The notes under the pieces were generated by a model, which saw only the letters and a list, made by a program, of their open reading frames with translations, was not told the DNA's origin and ran no database searches. Both the position numbers and the translations under genes were made by a program. From assembly GCA_005772955.1 (NCBI GenBank), contig SXID01000132.1, positions 1 to 49,092 on the forward strand: DNA of 49,092 bases, written 5' to 3'. This document shows positions 29,643 through 35,580 of this stretch, in pieces (the first letter of the stretch is position 1; each line of letters opens with the position of its first letter). This DNA comes from Planctomycetia bacterium. GTDB taxonomy: Bacteria > Planctomycetota > Planctomycetia > Gemmatales > Gemmataceae.

Positions 29643-29649
29643 TATCGAG

Positions 29650-29721
29650 TAGGTCGGGCGGGAATCGAACCCGCGTTTGTGTGCTTATCAGACACACGCC
29701 TTACCACTTGGCTACCGACCT
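29650..29721 (-). tRNA. tRNA-Ile(GAU)
   Basis: Acceptor AGGTCGG/CCGACCT, U8 present, short D-arm GCC/GGC, anticodon stem TGTGT/GCACA with loop CTGATAA (anticodon at 29687-29689 on the opposite strand), T-arm GCGGG-TTCGATT-CCCGC, discriminator A. CCA is not encoded. The acceptor starts A1-U72, unusual for tRNA-Ile, which commonly has G1 or A1 depending on lineage. Confidence 0.88.
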
Positions 29722-29736
29722 GAATATCTCAACTTC

Positions 29737-30951
29737 ATGTCGCGAACGTACACCGCGCGCTACGTGTTCCCCGTCAGCGGGCTTCCCCTTCCGAACGGCA
29801 CCGTCACCGTTGGTGACGAGCGCATCGAGGCGGTGTTACCACACGGCAAGCGCACCCCGGACGAAGACTTCGGCAACGTCGCGATCATCCCTGGTCTGGT
29901 GAACCCGCACACGCATCTCGATCTGAGCGGCGCTCGTGGGTTGATCCCACCGACGGACCCCGACCACTTCACCGACTGGTTGCGCGGCGTGATCACTTAC
30001 CGCCGCACGAGCAACCCGGAGCAAACGCAAACCGACATCCGCGACGGCTTAGCGGAATGCCTGCGTCACGGCACCACACTCATCGGCGACATCGCCAGCG
30101 AGGGCGCATCGTGGGAGCCGCTCGCGGCTTCGCGGCTTCGCGCCGTGGTGTTCCGTGAGGTGATCGGCGTGACGACAGCCGGCGTCGAGCGGTGGACGGA
30201 GGCGGTGCGGTGGGCGATGGACCGGAGCCGTGCGCGAATTCGCGCGGCGTACAGTCCGCACGCCCCGTACAGCGTGAACGCCGACGTACTCGTGAAGTCG
30301 GTCGGGTGCGGGTGCCCGGTCGCGATCCACCTGGCCGAGTCGCCCGCAGAAGTCGAACTACTCGACCGCCGAACCGGGCCGTTCGTCGGGTTCCTTCAGC
30401 AACTCGGTCTGTGGGATGGGGCAGTGCTCCCGTCGTCGCTCGGCGGCATCGTGCCGGACACGGCAAACGCGGGCACGCCGATCCGCGAACCGTACCCGGT
30501 GCTTTACGTTCACGGCAACTACCTCTCACTGAGCACCGAACTGAAGGCGCATCAGTCCATCGTCTACTGCCCGCGAACGCACGCGGCGTTTGGGCACCCG
30601 CCGCACCCCTTCCGAGAGTTCCTCGCGCGCGGTGTTCGCGTGTGCCTCGGTACCGATAGCCTCGCGTCGAACCCTGATCTCGACATCCTTGCCGAAGCGC
30701 GGTTCGTGCGATCGCGTTACCCCGACTTCCCCGGCGATCAGTTGTTGCGGATGGTCACGCTTTCGGGCGCCGAATCGCTCGGCTGGGTCAACGAGTGCGG
30801 TAGCCTCGAAGCCGGCAAGAGCGCCGACTTCGTGGTGGTGCCGCTGCCGGACGCGGACGCGCCCGACCCGCACGAACTGCTGCTCGCGGATCACGCGGGC
30901 GCGCGCCGCACAATGTTTCGCGGACAGTGGCGAACGTCGAGTACCCCGTGA
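29737..30951 (+). CDS. Amidohydrolase (cytosine/aminofutalosine deaminase-like)
   Basis: 404 residues, metal-dependent hydrolase of the ATZ/TRZ superfamily. Visible: the HxH motif at H58/H60 (VNPHTHLDLSG), AIHLAESPAE, LYVHGNYLS and the metal aspartate in CLGTDSLASN, then the C-terminal closing strand ECGSLEAGKSADFVVV. Family members deaminate guanine, S-adenosylhomocysteine or aminodeoxyfutalosine; the substrate cannot be told here. The gene lies on + between - strand tRNA loci; its last ten bases overlap the tRNA-Arg(ACG) acceptor region. Confidence 0.85.
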   Translation: MSRTYTARYVFPVSGLPLPNGTVTVGDERIEAVLPHGKRTPDEDFGNVAIIPGLVNPHTHLDLSGARGLIPPTDPDHFTDWLRGVITYRRTSNPEQTQTDIRDGLAECLRHGTTLIGDIASEGASWEPLAASRLRAVVFREVIGVTTAGVERWTEAVRWAMDRSRARIRAAYSPHAPYSVNADVLVKSVGCGCPVAIHLAESPAEVELLDRRTGPFVGFLQQLGLWDGAVLPSSLGGIVPDTANAGTPIREPYPVLYVHGNYLSLSTELKAHQSIVYCPRTHAAFGHPPHPFREFLARGVRVCLGTDSLASNPDLDILAEARFVRSRYPDFPGDQLLRMVTLSGAESLGWVNECGSLEAGKSADFVVVPLPDADAPDPHELLLADHAGARRTMFRGQWRTSSTP

Positions 30952-31009
30952 AGGAGTCGAACCTTCCAGCCGGGCTTCGTAGACCCAGCACCGCGCCGTC
31001 GGACGGGGC
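30942..31009 (-). tRNA. tRNA-Arg(ACG)-like, aberrant D-arm
   Basis: 68 bases. Acceptor GCCCCGT/ACGGGGT, anticodon loop CTACGAA, T-arm GAAGG-TTCGACT-CCTTC, discriminator A. The D-region is only about 15 bases, begins CC in place of U8/A9 and forms at best a CCG/CGG stem. Last gene of the array in transcription order. Confidence 0.7.
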
Positions 31010-31028
31010 GTAACAAACACATCAACAG

Positions 31029-31101
31029 AGGGCCGGGTGGGAATCGAACCCACTACACGCGGGTTAACAACCCGCTGCTATTCCGTATCAGCTTCCGACC
31101 C
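31029..31101 (-). tRNA. tRNA-Asn(GUU), copy 2
   Basis: Acceptor GGGTCGG/CCGGCCC, anticodon stem GCGGG/CCCGC with loop TTGTTAA, T-arm GTGGG-TTCGATT-CCCAC. Position 8 is A, and the discriminator is U, unlike the usual G73 of tRNA-Asn, so charging may be weak. Confidence 0.82.
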
Positions 31102-31110
31102 AAGAAGCAG

Positions 31111-31180
31111 TACACCATGCGGGAGTCGAACCAGCCAACCGGGCTTCGGAAACCCAGCGCCGCAAACCGTCGGATGGTGC
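31111..31180 (-). tRNA. tRNA-Arg(CCG)-like, aberrant D-arm
   Basis: Acceptor GCACCAT/ATGGTGT, anticodon loop TTCCGAA, T-loop TTCGACT, discriminator A. One mismatch in the T-stem. The D-region starts CC and, like the ACG gene, forms only a weak CCG/CGG stem; the two Arg genes look paralogous. Confidence 0.7.
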
Positions 31181-31184
31181 GCAG

Positions 31185-31256
31185 TCAGGATGGCAGGAAT
31201 CGAACCTACTTGAACGAGTTCCCAAGACGCGCGGCCAGCCAATGGCCCACATCCTG
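31185..31256 (-). tRNA. tRNA-Pro(UGG)
   Basis: C1-G72 pair typical of tRNA-Pro (CAGGATG/CATCCTG), U8 present, D-stem GGCC/GGCC, anticodon loop CTTGGGA with stem CGCGT/ACTCG (one mismatch), T-arm GTAGG-TTCGATT-CCTGC, discriminator A. Confidence 0.8.
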
Positions 31257-31266
31257 ATATCAACAG

Positions 31267-31340
31267 TCGGGAAGACAGGAGTCGAACCTGCGATCTCGCG
31301 CTTCCGACGCGCGCGGCCACTCCACCTGGCCCACTTCCCG
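31267..31340 (-). tRNA. tRNA-Pro(CGG)
   Basis: C1-G72 acceptor CGGGAAG/CTTCCCG, U8 present, D-stem GGCC/GGCC, perfect anticodon stem CGCGC/GCGCG with loop GTCGGAA, T-loop TTCGACT, discriminator A. Loop position 32 is G instead of the usual pyrimidine. Confidence 0.83.
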
Positions 31341-31361
31341 ATGGTGCCAAAACATCAACAG

Positions 31362-31433
31362 AGCGTTCGGCGGGATTTGAACCCGCGCGTCCTGGTTGGG
31401 AACCAGACCGGCTACCGCTGACCTCACGAACGC
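31362..31433 (-). tRNA. tRNA-Gly(CCC)
   Basis: Acceptor GCGTTCG/CGAACGC, U8 present, anticodon loop TTCCCAA on stem TCTGG/CCAGG, T-arm GCGGG-TTCAAAT-CCCGC, discriminator U as expected for tRNA-Gly. Confidence 0.87.
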
Positions 31434-31445
31434 AGTTCTCATCAG

Positions 31446-31518
31446 TCCCGGCGGCTGGAGTTGAACCAGCTCCTCCGCGTTTTCAGCGCGGCGCTACTAC
31501 CGAGTTAGCTTCACCGAG
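31446..31518 (-). tRNA. tRNA-Phe(GAA)
   Basis: Acceptor CTCGGTG/CGCCGGG with wobble pairs and C1-G72 (usual Phe is G1-C72), position 8 is A, D-stem GCTA/TAGC, anticodon stem CCGCG/CGCGG with loop CTGAAAA, T-loop TTCAACT, discriminator A. Confidence 0.8.
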
Positions 31519-31532
31519 TACGTCCAGAACAG

Positions 31533-31605
31533 TACCTCGCCAGGGGATCGAACCCTGCGTCTGCCGGTTAAAAGCCGGCGGCTTCGCCATTGAAGCGTGC
31601 GAGGC
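31533..31605 (-). tRNA. tRNA-Lys(UUU)
   Basis: Acceptor GCCTCGC/GCGAGGT, position 8 is A, strong D-stem GCTTC/GAAGC, anticodon stem GCCGG/CCGGC with loop CTTTTAA, T-arm CAGGG-TTCGATC-CCCTG, discriminator A. Confidence 0.84.
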
Positions 31606-31616
31606 GTCACTCACAG

Positions 31617-31691
31617 TTCCGGGGGCTGGAATCGAACCAGCGACTTCCACCTTCAAAGGGTGGCATCAGTGCCAACACTGAATCCCCCGGA
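31617..31691 (-). tRNA. tRNA-Gln(UUG)
   Basis: U1-A72 acceptor typical for Gln (TCCGGGG/CCCCGGA), position 8 is G, D-stem TCAGT/ACTGA, anticodon stem CCACC/GGTGG with loop CTTTGAA, T-arm GCTGG-TTCGATT-CCAGC. A 32-base segment is identical to the CUG gene next to it. Confidence 0.85.
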
Positions 31692-31704
31692 ATCAATTCA
31701 ACAG

Positions 31705-31779
31705 TTGCCGAGGCTGGAATCGAACCAGCGACTTCCACCTTCAGAGAGTGGCTTCAGTACCAGCACTGAATCCCCGGCA
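31705..31779 (-). tRNA. tRNA-Gln(CUG)
   Basis: U1-A72 acceptor TGCCGGG/CTCGGCA, position 8 is G, anticodon stem CCACT/GGTGG with loop CTCTGAA. The same variable and T-arm as the UUG neighbour point to a tandem duplication followed by anticodon divergence. Confidence 0.85.
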
Positions 31780-31792
31780 TCACGTCAGCGAG

Positions 31793-31866
31793 CAGCGGTG
31801 GTAGGAATCGAACCTACAAATTACGCCTTAACAGGGCGCCGCCTTACCATTCGGCTCCACACCGCT
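31793..31866 (-). tRNA. tRNA-Asn(GUU), copy 1
   Basis: Acceptor AGCGGTG/CACCGCT, U8 present, D-stem GCC/GGC, anticodon loop CTGTTAA on GCGCC/GGCGT, T-arm GTAGG-TTCGATT-CCTAC, discriminator G as expected for Asn. First gene of the array in transcription order. Confidence 0.87.
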
Positions 31867-31879
31867 GTGCGTGCAAAAA

Positions 31880-31926
31880 CACCATCGGCCTGGCATCTCG
31901 TTGCGGAGATACCAGGCCGATGGGTG
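31880..31926. repeat. Hairpin upstream of the tRNA array
   Basis: Arms 31880-31899 and 31906-31926 (caccatcggcctggcatctc and complement, few differences), 6-base loop. It sits 14 bases upstream of the first tRNA of the array. A second weaker inverted repeat is at 32006-32016/32058-32068. The rest of 31867-32121 shows no gene, so the array promoter should lie in or beyond it. Confidence 0.7.
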
Positions 31927-32121
31927 CTGAACCCTGCTCGGTATGGCATCATCCGGTCTGGATGCGAATCGGAGTGCGGAATTGATTCGGGAATTGGTTG
32001 GGTCGATTAAACGGCCCAAACCCGAACCCGCGCGGTTGCGGTCGTTGGGGGTTACGCGGCTGTTTAATGAACCCGGTCATGGCTTGCTCACTGGTATGCG
32101 AAGTCGTCACAACTATTGACG

Positions 32122-32154
32122 CGGCGCACACCCATTGGTTCGCGGTGTGCGCCG
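32122..32154 (-). terminator. Probable terminator of the small secreted-protein gene
   Basis: Perfect 11-bp stem (cggcgcacacc/ggtgtgcgccg) 33 bases downstream of the stop at 32187 on the - strand. No strong U-run follows. Confidence 0.5.
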
Positions 32155-32186: not shown

Positions 32187-32474
32187 TTACCATTGGCGTC
32201 CGCGGTCTTCGATCACCTCGACACGAACCCGCAACCCGCGGTCTTCCAGGCGGCACGCGACACGCTCGGCCTCGCGCCGCGTTTCGTACCGGCCATAACG
32301 GTCCCAGTGCCCGTTGTGCCGTACGTACACCACGTAGTCGTGATCGTGCCACTGTTGCAGTTGCGGGACAAACCCGCCGCCCGACCCGCGGAGCGGTTCG
32401 CCGGCCGTCGCGACCTGCCCGCTGACCCCGATCGCCACCACGGCCACCGCCCCGCGAATCAACTTGCGGATCAT
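32187..32474 (-). CDS. Small secreted hypothetical protein
   Basis: 95 residues. Signal peptide (MIRKLIRGAVAVVAIGVSGQVATA) and a mature domain whose end (RREAERVACRLEDRGLRVRVEVI) looks like a small beta-alpha-beta unit of SPOR-like type. A GGAG lies six bases before ATG 32474; an ATG four codons upstream is less well placed. Diverges from the phosphomannose isomerase gene. Function unknown. Confidence 0.72.
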   Translation of the reverse strand: MIRKLIRGAVAVVAIGVSGQVATAGEPLRGSGGGFVPQLQQWHDHDYVVYVRHNGHWDRYGRYETRREAERVACRLEDRGLRVRVEVIEDRGRQW

Positions 32475-32505
32475 CGTTATCTCCATTCCTCACCAGCGTC
32501 AGGAA

Positions 32506-33881: not shown

Positions 33882-33972
33882 GGTTATCTTTCGCAGCACT
33901 CGCACTTTTTTCTGAACACCTCCCCGCGTGAGCGGACATGATAGGGGTAGATGCTCGCTGGGAGTGCCCCCG

Positions 33973-35580
33973 ATGTCTGTCCGCGTTCGACTGCCGAACC
34001 CGCTCGCCGCGCTCGATGATCGCGTGCTGTTGAGCCGTTTTGCGGAACAGCACGACCAACCGGCCTTTGAACAACTCGTGAAGCGGCACGGGCGGCTCGT
34101 CTTCGGAGTGTGCCGGCGTGTTGTTCGCGACGCGCACCTCGCGGAAGACGCGTTCCAGGCGGTGTTCCTGGTGCTGGCGCGCAACCCGCGGGGCGCGACG
34201 GAAGCGACCTCCGTGGGCGGGTGGCTGTTCGGTGTCGCGCGTCGCGTTGGCCTCGCGGCGCGGCGTCACGAACAGCGTCGCGAGAAACGCGAACTGAAGG
34301 CGCGCCAACAAGGGGCTGACGCCCTCCCCTCGCCAACAACCGATTTCGATGATCTCCTTCGCGTGTTGGACGAAGAACTCGGCGCGCTGCCGGACGAGGT
34401 TCGCGCGGCACTGGTCGCGTGCTTCCTCGAAGAGCGCACGCACGACGAAGCCGCTCGCGAACTCGGCTGGAGCCTCAGCACACTGCGCCGGCGGGTCGAT
34501 CGCGGGAAGGAACTTCTGCGCTCGCGACTCGCTCGTCGCGGAGTGACGCTCGCGCTGGGGTTGCTCACGGGTGCGATTGCGTCCCCGGCTCGCGCCGCAG
34601 TTCCCGCACTCGCGCCTTCACCCGCAAGTGCCGCACTTGCCGCCGAAGCGTTCAAGCGTGGCATCGGAGCGAAGCTCTCGGCTGCTGTTACCGTGATCGC
34701 CCTCGCGGTTGGCGGAATCGCGTTCGGCCTCGCGAACGAACCAACTGATGCGCCGCTCCCGATCACCGCGAGCGCGGCGCAACCAAAGCCCGTGTTCGAC
34801 GTGGCACCGGCCCCGCGTGCAATCGTGGTGAAGCCCTGGGTGACGGTATCCGGCCGCGTGGTCTTCCCAAAAGACCAAGCGATTCCAGATGTGAAGGTGA
34901 TCACGACCGGCATCAAGGACGCGGAGGTGTGGAAGCCGTTCGCGCCGCTGATGTCCGAGGATGTACTGGTTCATGCGGAGAATCGCGGCATCGCGAACGC
35001 GATGGTGTGGCTGCGCCCGGATTCGGACGACAAGAAGGACGACTTCCCCGCGGAGAGCATTCACCCCGATCTCGCGAACCCGAAGCCGCAAGAACACCCC
35101 GTCCTCGCGGTTCGCGGGCAGTTCCTGCCGCGGGTGCTCGCGGCGCGAGCCGGCGATCGCGTGACGTTTGACAACCGCTTACCGGTCCCGACCAACGTGC
35201 TCTACACCGCGTTCCAACTCGACAACGGCGAGGGGCGAGAGTTCAACGTGCTGGTCGGAAAGGGCATGTCGCACACCGCGAAGCCGCTCCCCGCGATGCG
35301 CTCGCCCGACACGTACACGTCCAGCATCTACCCGTGGATGAAGGGTTACGTGTGGGCGTTCGATCACCCGTATTTCGCGGTCACGGACGCCAACGGCAAG
35401 TTTTCGATCGCGAACGCGCCCGCGGGTAAGTGGCGGCTCGTGGTGTGGCATGAAGCCGTGGGCTACCTCGGCGGCGCACCGGGCAAACTCGGCGCGAAGG
35501 TGACGATTCCCGAAAGCCGTGACGGGAAACTGGAACTCGACCCGCTCCCGTTCAAGAGCGACGACTGGCCCGCTCCGTAA
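33973..35580 (+). CDS. ECF sigma factor fused to a TM helix and a cupredoxin-like domain
   Basis: 535 residues. Sigma-70 region 2 at about 30-95 (LVFGVCRRVVRDAHLAEDAF), region 4 at about 137-187 (HDEAARELGWSLSTLRRRVDRG). A weak hydrophobic stretch at 191-213 and a clear TM helix at 236-255 follow, then an exported beta-sandwich domain at about 288-515. That domain matches the next gene product (DHPYFAVTDANGKFSIANAPAGK) but lacks its likely copper ligands: T407, S450 and Y453 stand where the partner has His, Cys and His; M456 remains. ATG 33973 has GGAG at 33961-33964. It probably senses envelope state directly, without a separate anti-sigma factor (inference). Confidence 0.88.
   Translation: MSVRVRLPNPLAALDDRVLLSRFAEQHDQPAFEQLVKRHGRLVFGVCRRVVRDAHLAEDAFQAVFLVLARNPRGATEATSVGGWLFGVARRVGLAARRHEQRREKRELKARQQGADALPSPTTDFDDLLRVLDEELGALPDEVRAALVACFLEERTHDEAARELGWSLSTLRRRVDRGKELLRSRLARRGVTLALGLLTGAIASPARAAVPALAPSPASAALAAEAFKRGIGAKLSAAVTVIALAVGGIAFGLANEPTDAPLPITASAAQPKPVFDVAPAPRAIVVKPWVTVSGRVVFPKDQAIPDVKVITTGIKDAEVWKPFAPLMSEDVLVHAENRGIANAMVWLRPDSDDKKDDFPAESIHPDLANPKPQEHPVLAVRGQFLPRVLAARAGDRVTFDNRLPVPTNVLYTAFQLDNGEGREFNVLVGKGMSHTAKPLPAMRSPDTYTSSIYPWMKGYVWAFDHPYFAVTDANGKFSIANAPAGKWRLVVWHEAVGYLGGAPGKLGAKVTIPESRDGKLELDPLPFKSDDWPAP

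Follow-up and report, generated by a model that had tools for sequence, protein, structure and literature searches.

Why genomes carry large tRNA arrays has long been a puzzle, since they may be junk, mobile cargo or a reserve. The array described here lies in a window of 49,092 nucleotides (the whole stretch of DNA analysed). Degenerate tRNA clusters are already known in planctomycetes; the portion of the source consulted calls them partially degraded, often acquired by horizontal gene transfer and perhaps dispensable, and describes no regulation for them (PMC4807772). They are probably the same kind of arrays in other genera. In the present case the genome itself hints at the purpose of the array, because the switch upstream of it is tuned to the array's own anticodons. 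Judging from its sequence, the array is very probably an inducible spare tRNA operon under ribosome-mediated transcription attenuation of the trp/his type.

Eleven non-canonical tRNA genes and a second tRNA set

In the interval 30941-31866 ARAGORN called eleven tRNA genes and no others (array 1). All of them lie on the minus strand, separated by spacers of 3-20 bases, and the calls confirmed both the eleven-gene array and the amino acids given in the initial annotation. The ARAGORN calls are as follows.

31792..31866, minus strand, tRNA-Asn(gtt), first gene of the array
31704..31779, minus strand, tRNA-Gln(ctg), without U8
31616..31691, minus strand, tRNA-Gln(ttg), without U8
31532..31605, minus strand, tRNA-Lys(ttt), without U8
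31445..31518, minus strand, tRNA-Phe(gaa), without U8
31361..31433, minus strand, tRNA-Gly(ccc)
31266..31340, minus strand, tRNA-Pro(cgg)
31184..31256, minus strand, tRNA-Pro(tgg)
31110..31180, minus strand, tRNA-Arg(ccg), short D region, without U8
31028..31101, minus strand, tRNA-Asn(gtt), second copy, without U8
30941..31009, minus strand, tRNA-Arg(acg), short D region, without U8
29649..29721, minus strand, tRNA-Ile(gat), possible outlying array member (by position only)

The stop codon of a convergent amidohydrolase ORF overlaps the 3' end of tRNA-Arg(acg), and tRNA-Ile(gat) was located 1.2-1.4 kb downstream of Arg(acg) in seven genus genomes read. When the genes were scored with Rfam, as had been proposed, 8 of the 11 exceeded the gathering cut-off at 40-55 bits, and the two other tRNAs of the window scored 60 and 71 bits. 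The array tRNA-Lys reached 27.5 bits, and both Arg genes were absent from the Rfam matches up to E = 1. The reported absence of U8 from seven of the eleven genes was borne out, and the two Arg genes are short (69 and 71 nt). Elsewhere in the same genome, U8 was present in 39 of 39 tRNAs, in a count that leaves out contigs C110, C5, C150, C258, C268 and C27; on the last four of these, 6 of 7 tRNA genes lacked U8, including lone Ser genes classed as odd. In the complete same-genus genome G002, U8 was present in 51 of 54 non-array tRNAs. The lack of an encoded CCA, also noted earlier, holds for the array and is ruled out as a sign of oddity, given that none of the 75 tRNA genes listed for the genome encodes CCA. 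The array also suggests that tRNAs without U8 and with reduced D regions are functional in bacteria.

Array 1 belongs to a pair of arrays that together make up most of a second tRNA set, which exists alongside the canonical set. G002 carries canonical-looking copies elsewhere for every array-1 and array-2 anticodon except Gly(ccc), whose sole copy elsewhere is an isolated gene with a low score. The array's own draft genome yielded no canonical Asn(gtt), Pro(cgg) or Arg(acg), which is probably a gap in the draft. The initial annotation had named beforehand, as the outcome that would count against it, a housekeeping cluster holding the sole canonical copies. Such a cluster is ruled out by the copies in G002 (all but Gly(ccc)) and is also contradicted by the lack of canonical structure, with U8 missing in 7 of 11 genes. 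The annotation was right in that these tRNAs are extra, non-canonical and selected.

Leader ORF and putative hairpin switch upstream of the array

Just upstream of the interval described in the initial annotation, and missed by it, lie a predicted leader peptide and attenuator, with the following elements.

32118..32143, minus strand, promoter-like element GCGAACC-N14-GCGTC, motif match in the window
31949..32080, minus strand, leader ORF of 43 codons, MTGFIKQPRNPQRPQPRGFGFGPFNRPNQFPNQFRTPIRIQTG followed by the stop codon, with composition and codons matching array 1
31908..31950, minus strand, antiterminator, in which region 2 (31931-31950) pairs with region 3
31874..31923, minus strand, intrinsic terminator, an 18-bp hairpin (31882-31923) with a T-run

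The intrinsic terminator stands between the leader ORF and the first gene, and its hairpin ends 15 bases before the first tRNA. Region 2 begins at the leader stop codon, where the duplex starts, and the stop codon sits in a strand able to form the antiterminator and exclude the terminator. The antiterminator and terminator are predicted to be mutually exclusive, and a ribosome at the stop codon would mask the former. In a structure alignment of 10 of 15 array-1 leaders, those sharing one layout, 97.2% of cells were paired in the terminator (30-49% when slid) and 95.3% in the antiterminator (36-48% when slid), both structures being drawn from the same sequences used to score them. The covariation score was reached in 3 of 500 shuffles for the antiterminator and 7 of 500 for the terminator, and the pairs changed on both sides (three and two, respectively) were not above shuffles (154/500 and 330/500). 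Taken singly, 8 of 29 leaders had a 2:3 duplex that beat shuffles at 5%, and array 1 of G002 had no clear T-run (weak). The leader does not qualify as a T-box riboswitch, since Rfam gave no hit to that family up to E = 1 in 30700-32100. Weak Rfam matches near the array (Plastid-ycf2, mir-2765, Tymo tRNA-like and Na+ riboswitch) were below their gathering scores and were rejected; the mir-2765 match overlies the terminator hairpin.

Of 30 leader regions from the two arrays, 29 contain the promoter-like element, which we take to belong to the ECF-sigma-like -35/-10 class; none of 30 regions upstream of the top-scoring non-array tRNAs of G002 contains it. A looser pattern gave 4 matches on both strands of the window, where 6 matches at ≤1 mismatch were found against 1.8 expected. 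The whole of G002 contained 22 exact matches, two of them at the two arrays, compared with 2 for the reversed pattern.

The leader ORF was present at array 1 in 15 genomes. Most residues of array-1 leaders are Asn, Gln, Lys, Phe, Gly, Pro or Arg, and array-2 leaders are composed mainly of the other amino acids. Composition was counted in 15 leaders of each array (leaving out G022, which has a GTG start, G010, G023 and G024 for array 1, and G012, G010, G024 and G025 for array 2). In array-1 leaders, 474 of 571 residues belonged to the array-1 set, compared with a fraction of 0.36 in six window proteins; in array-2 leaders, 710 of 762 belonged to the array-2 set, compared with 0.72 in the same six proteins, this set omitting Arg despite the presence of Arg(tcg) in many array 2s. 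Adding G022 and G012 changed little (486/589 and 751/805, respectively). The true split of amino acids between the leaders ranked 1 of 4368 when pooled, and was best in 12 of 13 single genomes (rank 5 in G007). The set fraction was 0.83 (array 1) and 0.93 (array 2) in frame, versus 0.32-0.64 and 0.54-0.66 in the other five frames. With pooled pN/pS of 0.35 (array 1) and 0.47 (array 2), the leader is, by this measure, under purifying selection. These counts support, at the sequence level, a leader rich in regulatory codons.

For several amino acids each leader matches its own array down to the isoacceptor codon. In array-1 leaders, all 58 Gly codons were GGG or GGA (background 0.34) and 16 of 17 Lys codons were AAA (0.22), while in array-2 leaders 21 of 21 Lys codons were AAG (0.78), 61 of 62 Ser codons AGY (0.43) and 39 of 40 Val codons GTY (0.44). 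Enrichment was also seen for a number of codons that end in U and are decoded through G34 wobble (GAT, TAT and AAT). No excess over background was seen for Pro in array-1 leaders (61/94 readable), and readable codons in array-2 leaders showed no excess or fell under background for Leu (106/120), Thr (99/109) and Arg (9/35). Pro CCC and the Ile/Thr codons of array-1 leaders are misfits to array 1.

The layout, the codon match, the mutually exclusive conserved hairpins and the selection on leader and tRNA bodies can all be read from the alignments and counts; from these we infer transcription, leader translation, the direction of the response and tRNA charging. Transcription would start at the ECF-like promoter, and a ribosome would then translate the leader peptide. 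Stalling on a leader codon would leave region 2 free to pair with region 3, and the polymerase could then read into the array and supply tRNAs for those very codons. Array 2 would respond through its own leader to the other amino acids. Because the leader is composed of the codons of the spare tRNAs and adjoins an RNA switch, synthesis of these tRNAs is probably confined to times when ribosomes stall because the tRNAs are short. The natural trigger may be loss of tRNA through nucleases, antibiotics or starvation.

The attenuator might instead sense general amino-acid starvation through uncharged tRNA, with the array tRNAs acting as stringent-response or scavenging RNAs and not as replacements. 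Amino-acid operon attenuators share this leader architecture in the portion of the source consulted (PMC1183508), and the listing of many amino acids in one leader and the enrichment of GAT, TAT and AAT fit such a sensor. A lack of amino acids is, however, not cured by more tRNA, and the isoacceptor-level match (Lys AAA versus AAG, Gly GGR in array 1, Ile ATA) points to tRNA supply; we regard starvation sensing as unlikely.

Conservation in the genus and the question of decay

All 19 genomes of the genus, the array's own among them, gave DNA matches to both arrays, so array 1 is not a chance arrangement. The array was found on contigs of up to 10.1 Mb, and in the loci read the tRNAs largely follow the same order, apart from losses and occasional shifts; in G002, for example, the two Gln genes are swapped and an Arg(acg) is located elsewhere.

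A degenerate, horizontally acquired and dispensable cluster, as planctomycete clusters are described in the consulted part of PMC4807772, would account for the low covariance scores and missing U8, for a decaying partial duplicate of the array on contig C150, and for G010 and G024, where the array survives only as decayed, shrunken remnants. It would also fit the faster divergence of array tRNAs, whose mean identity between G000 and G002 was 0.86 against 0.94 for canonical tRNAs (some slots being mismatched). Decay, implied by the "degenerate cores" of the initial annotation, is nevertheless not supported, because throughout the genus the loss of U8 is for the most part fixed in particular slots, and the stems are kept. 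In the array tRNAs, 4628 of 5016 stem cells were paired and 99 of 384 pair positions had changed on both sides; this comparison drops slots with <6 genes, uses a canonical set without the contigs bearing odd lone genes, and fails in anchoring for some His, Tyr and Thr genes. Together with the match in all 19 genomes, the broadly kept order, the selection on the leader and the absence of mobile genes from ten nearby ORFs, this makes a dispensable cluster very improbable, and the idea is largely refuted already.

The suggested link to phages, plasmids or integrative elements likewise found no support. The phage and plasmid matches listed were short, single-tRNA hits covering at most 8% of the array, and no record of any kind among the matches listed covered 80% of it. 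A scan of ten nearby ORFs, 6 of which had Pfam matches, revealed no phage, integrase or transposase domain. On the short matches (best listed 8%), the lack of mobile genes among those ten ORFs and the long contigs, up to 10.1 Mb, that bear the array, we reject a mobile-element tRNA array.

It is also very improbable that the hairpin is only the terminator of an upstream ORF (32187-32486, same strand as the leader, no Pfam match) and that the small ORF is spurious. In the window the upstream ORF and the leader are separated by a promoter-like motif, which is found ahead of 29 of 30 array leaders; the codon match, the frame and the pairing at the stop codon are specific; and the layout recurs in arrays elsewhere in the class.

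Relation to known systems and occurrence in other families

We found no published report of this tRNA-array switch. In the consulted part of PMC1183508, trp/his attenuators share with the array a leader ORF rich in regulatory codons with its stop codon beside region 2, exclusive 2:3 and 3:4 hairpins, and a terminator before the first gene. The array switch differs in controlling tRNA genes and not enzymes, in a leader that would report many amino acids at once together with specific isoacceptors, and in an output that is the same tRNA whose lack is sensed. Attenuation would in this case act on tRNA genes and respond to many amino acids together. T-box leaders similarly sense tRNA shortage in cis before translation genes; the T-box binds uncharged tRNA directly, whereas in the array switch a ribosome would read codons.

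The trn operon of Anabaena (26 tRNAs on a megaplasmid), normally silent and induced by translation inhibitors, is likewise an additional tRNA set alongside the housekeeping genes, but is plasmid-borne and under the RHH repressor TrcR; the main text of that report contains none of the terms "leader peptide", "attenuat-" and "terminator" (PMC10272220, consulted in part). Mycobacteria, phages and plasmids carry tRNA array units, for which an anti-defence role has been proposed and which also contain redundant, divergent and clustered tRNAs; they differ in occurring on plasmids, phages and other mobile DNA besides chromosomes, and the main texts consulted contain neither "leader" nor "attenuat-" (PMC5966550, PMC12803027). 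The present array, too, has many dense tRNA genes redundant with chromosomal ones. The size threshold of such units is about 20 genes, and array 1 alone (11 genes) is smaller.

On balance we favour a broader picture in which Planctomycetia possess a dedicated tRNA-shortage response: a second set of structurally divergent tRNAs, which may withstand tRNA-cutting toxins, stays off until a ribosome fails a codon checklist in the leader. The supply of tRNA would feed back directly and negatively on its synthesis, isoacceptor by isoacceptor, and in one genus an ancestral single array and its checklist would have split in two. So-called degraded tRNA clusters would then become a testable stress circuit, and natural leaders would be on offer for sensing tRNA depletion.

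Arrays sharing this layout were found in 12 families. Outside the genus, ATA occurred in 16 of 17 leaders of arrays with Ile(tat) and in 2 of 13 leaders of arrays without it (P = 1.5e-5), in a set chosen for readable leaders and with P values that overstate independence because the sequences are related. One of the two exceptions (L245) has an ambiguous Ile/Tyr call. The other codon groups there were not significant (8 of 9). TTA was weakly associated with Leu(taa) (12/17 versus 20/47 overall), in a test where a single fixed tRNA list served for the 15 array-1 rows, and showed no link outside the genus. Distinct-codon richness reached P < 0.05 in 14 of 30 outside-genus leaders, which is at most suggestive.

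By an automatic criterion, a terminator, a leader and a pairing run of at least 6 near the stop codon were found at 56 of 83 arrays (a count that omits arrays with <300 bases upstream), compared with 2/30 and 1/22 canonical tRNAs; the terminator alone was found at 64/83 versus 5/30 and 2/22 controls. The 27 arrays failing the automatic test comprised 19 without a terminator, one without a leader and 7 with a pairing run <6, and included the decayed arrays of G010 and G024. In four of the 27 (array 1 of G002, G012 and G022, and array 2 of G012), a hairpin and leader were visible by eye.

A second set of tRNA genes

ARAGORN calls eleven tRNA genes in the array of the window (array 1), in the order Asn, Gln(ctg), Gln(ttg), Lys(ttt), Phe, Gly(ccc), Pro(cgg), Pro(tgg), Arg(ccg), Asn and Arg(acg), in agreement with the number and amino acids of the initial annotation, and 8 of the 11 pass the Rfam tRNA cut-off. 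The array and the elements upstream of it are as follows.

30941-31866, minus strand: array 1, eleven tRNA genes (ARAGORN)
31874-31923, minus strand: terminator, a hairpin (18 bp) with a T-run, upstream of array 1
31949-32080, minus strand: array 1 leader ORF, 43 codons, MTGFIKQPRNPQRPQPRGFGFGPFNRPNQFPNQFRTPIRIQTG, before the hairpin

A convergent ORF for an amidohydrolase runs with its stop end into the 3' end of the final tRNA gene (window 30941-30951).

A second array (array 2) lies on contig C5 of the same genome with at least 16 genes, and has 19 genes in the complete genome of a relative in the genus (G002). Arrays 1 and 2 jointly cover 18 amino acids in G002, where Cys and Ile are represented by lone genes outside both; the odd pair Arg(gcg)-Cys constitutes a mini-array. 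For each anticodon of the two arrays, G002 has a canonical-looking copy elsewhere, Gly(ccc) excepted, of which there is one copy, lone and low-scoring. Searches with the tRNA model gave 77 matches in the own genome at E <= 1 and 75 at E <= 0.05, the threshold at which 12 other genomes of the genus have 55-86 and eight genomes of other families 34-49.

Leader ORFs and their codons

The residues of the window's leader are mostly amino acids served by array 1, and the array 2 leader, which a terminator likewise follows, is composed of the other amino acids (G002 sequence, MTLWHASTELQATSDAVAAKATYLAAGWEAGYALGLGLDTAARLEVEVEAALSGLSDTSG). Among 15 leaders of each kind, own-array residues account for 474 of 571 in array-1 leaders and 710 of 762 in array-2 leaders; for residues unique to one set, the counts are 399 own vs 65 of the other set and 613 vs 48, respectively. 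The true amino-acid split ranks best of 4368 possible splits with the leaders pooled and is also best in 12 of 13 single genomes (rank 5 in G007), and no composition match to the arrays was seen in the other reading frames of the leader DNA. Pooled pN/pS values of 0.35 (32 pairs) and 0.47 (19 pairs) point to purifying selection on the leaders, with one exception among the listed pairs (G021-G026, 1.66).

For some amino acids, the match between leader and array extends to isoacceptors. Array 1 holds Lys(ttt) and Gly(ccc/tcc), and its leaders use AAA for 16 of 17 Lys codons and GGG or GGA for all 58 Gly codons; array 2 holds Lys(ctt), Ser(gct) and Val(gac), and its leaders use AAG for all 21 Lys codons, AGY for 61 of 62 Ser codons and GTY for 39 of 40 Val codons. 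The codon excess was small or absent for Pro and Arg in array-1 leaders and for Leu, Thr and Arg in array-2 leaders. Within the same family, Leu(taa) occurs in three partial arrays, and the leader of each has a TTA; across 64 leaders this link is weak (12/17 vs 20/47, p = 0.044), and most other codon groups are strong (e.g., GAR, 42/42 vs 1/22). Outside the genus, ATA follows Ile(tat) (16 of 17 leaders with this tRNA vs 2 of 13 without), and the eight other codon groups tested showed no significant link to array tRNAs; in the 30 leaders there, ATA counts 19 vs 2.2 expected and TTA 22 vs 3.1 expected.

Putative attenuator and promoter

The best 2:3 duplex, a predicted antiterminator that pairs region 2, from the leader stop codon, with region 3 and is mutually exclusive with the terminator hairpin, begins within 3 bases of the stop codon in all 29 leaders that were tested; in only 8 of them does it outperform shuffles at the 5% level. 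In 10 array-1 leaders, 97.2% of terminator cells are paired, vs 30-49% when slid, and 95.3% of antiterminator cells, vs 36-48%; both-side changes (2 and 3 pairs, respectively) are not above shuffles, though just 7/500 and 3/500 shuffles reached the covariation score. Beyond the genus, the leader commonly has its stop codon within TGAC..CGG, which is complementary to the terminator arm (CCCGGTGTCA). By an automatic criterion, terminator, leader and pairing run occur together at 56 of 83 arrays, vs 2/30 and 1/22 canonical tRNAs. A canonical Ile(gat) locus (G002:C1:2020325-2020492, with Ala(tgc); G000:C80:14695 in the own genome) also passes the terminator-leader test, through either chance or similar control.

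The arrays are shrunken in two relatives whose genomes are smaller, at 4.8-4.9 Mb (G010, L141 and L214; G024, L142 and L215), array 1 being reduced to remnants. The tests run on their arrays found no attenuator, and array and switch seem to have been lost together.

The motif GCGAACC-N14-GCGTC, which we take to be similar to an ECF-sigma promoter, stands upstream of 29 of 30 leaders and is absent before the 30 non-array tRNAs that score highest in G002; a relaxed version of the motif has four occurrences on the window's two strands. GCGAACC is also found ~40 bases upstream of the first tRNA in three lone odd pairs, at which no leader was seen.

L148 1145-1589, L131 4359-4808 and L034 5761-5922: odd pairs of tRNA genes standing alone (Arg(gcg)-Cys and Ser-Arg), each preceded by GCGAACC

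The window also encodes, some 2 kb upstream of array 1 (33928-35580), an ECF-like protein of 550 aa that carries sigma-70 regions 2 and 4 and is a candidate sigma factor for the array promoter.

At the sequence level, control of the arrays by attenuation, a mechanism described in PMC1183508, is strongly supported; the role of the array tRNAs after synthesis is one that we infer. The Anabaena trn operon is described as TrcR-repressed and induced by translation-targeting antibiotics (PMC10272220). Our search, outside which most subscription literature lies, found no report of leader-peptide or attenuator control of tRNA operons, genes or clusters; the one paper that it brought up, a review of pyrrolysine, deals with something else in the passages matched. 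A report elsewhere is possible.

Distribution and conservation of the arrays

All 19 genomes of the genus, the own one counted, have DNA matches to array 1 and to array 2. Leaders of the same layout occur in 12 families including the own one, each with at least one array passing the automatic test. With the long array of G226, from another family, as query, matches at E <= 1e-8 occur in 234 of the 397 genomes searched in the class, those of the own genus counted, some of them perhaps through ordinary tRNAs. In a phylum sample, 11 of 294 genomes match at E <= 1e-25, all from the same class; distant arrays would escape this search because the own genome has no match at that threshold.

For tRNA arrays or clusters in planctomycetes, our literature search found PMC4807772 and, among the matches listed, nothing on their control. 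According to that paper, many Planctomycetes have degenerate tRNA clusters, which were often acquired by HGT and may be dispensable. The initial annotation termed the array cores degenerate, noting that seven genes lack U8. That count holds (7 of 11), but decay is not borne out, as stems are kept and the presence or absence of U8 is mostly slot-specific. Among the 32 array slots with at least six genes, the acceptor and T stems are paired in 4628 of 5016 cells, and 99 of 384 pair positions in these stems have changed on both sides. U8 is missing from every array 1 Arg gene (24) and from every array gene for Lys(ttt) (16), Met (15) and Ser(gct) (14), and most remaining slots are close to uniform in either having or lacking it. 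It is present in 48 of 143 array-1 genes and 191 of 275 array-2 genes, and in 39 of 39 canonical tRNAs of the own genome, a set without the lone odd genes, and 51 of 54 of G002. Mean identity between the own genome and G002 is 0.86 for array tRNAs vs 0.94 for canonical ones.

Real decay is exemplified within the own genome on contig C150, where part of array 1 is duplicated (L149, 306-550; Gln-Lys-Phe, 93% identical over 242 bases): in this decaying copy, an anticodon has changed (read as His) and the Phe 3' end is broken. The anticodon has shifted within the array 1 Arg slot, which has TCG or TCT in other genomes and TCA, which would read UGA, in genome G003 (L147, 269-341).
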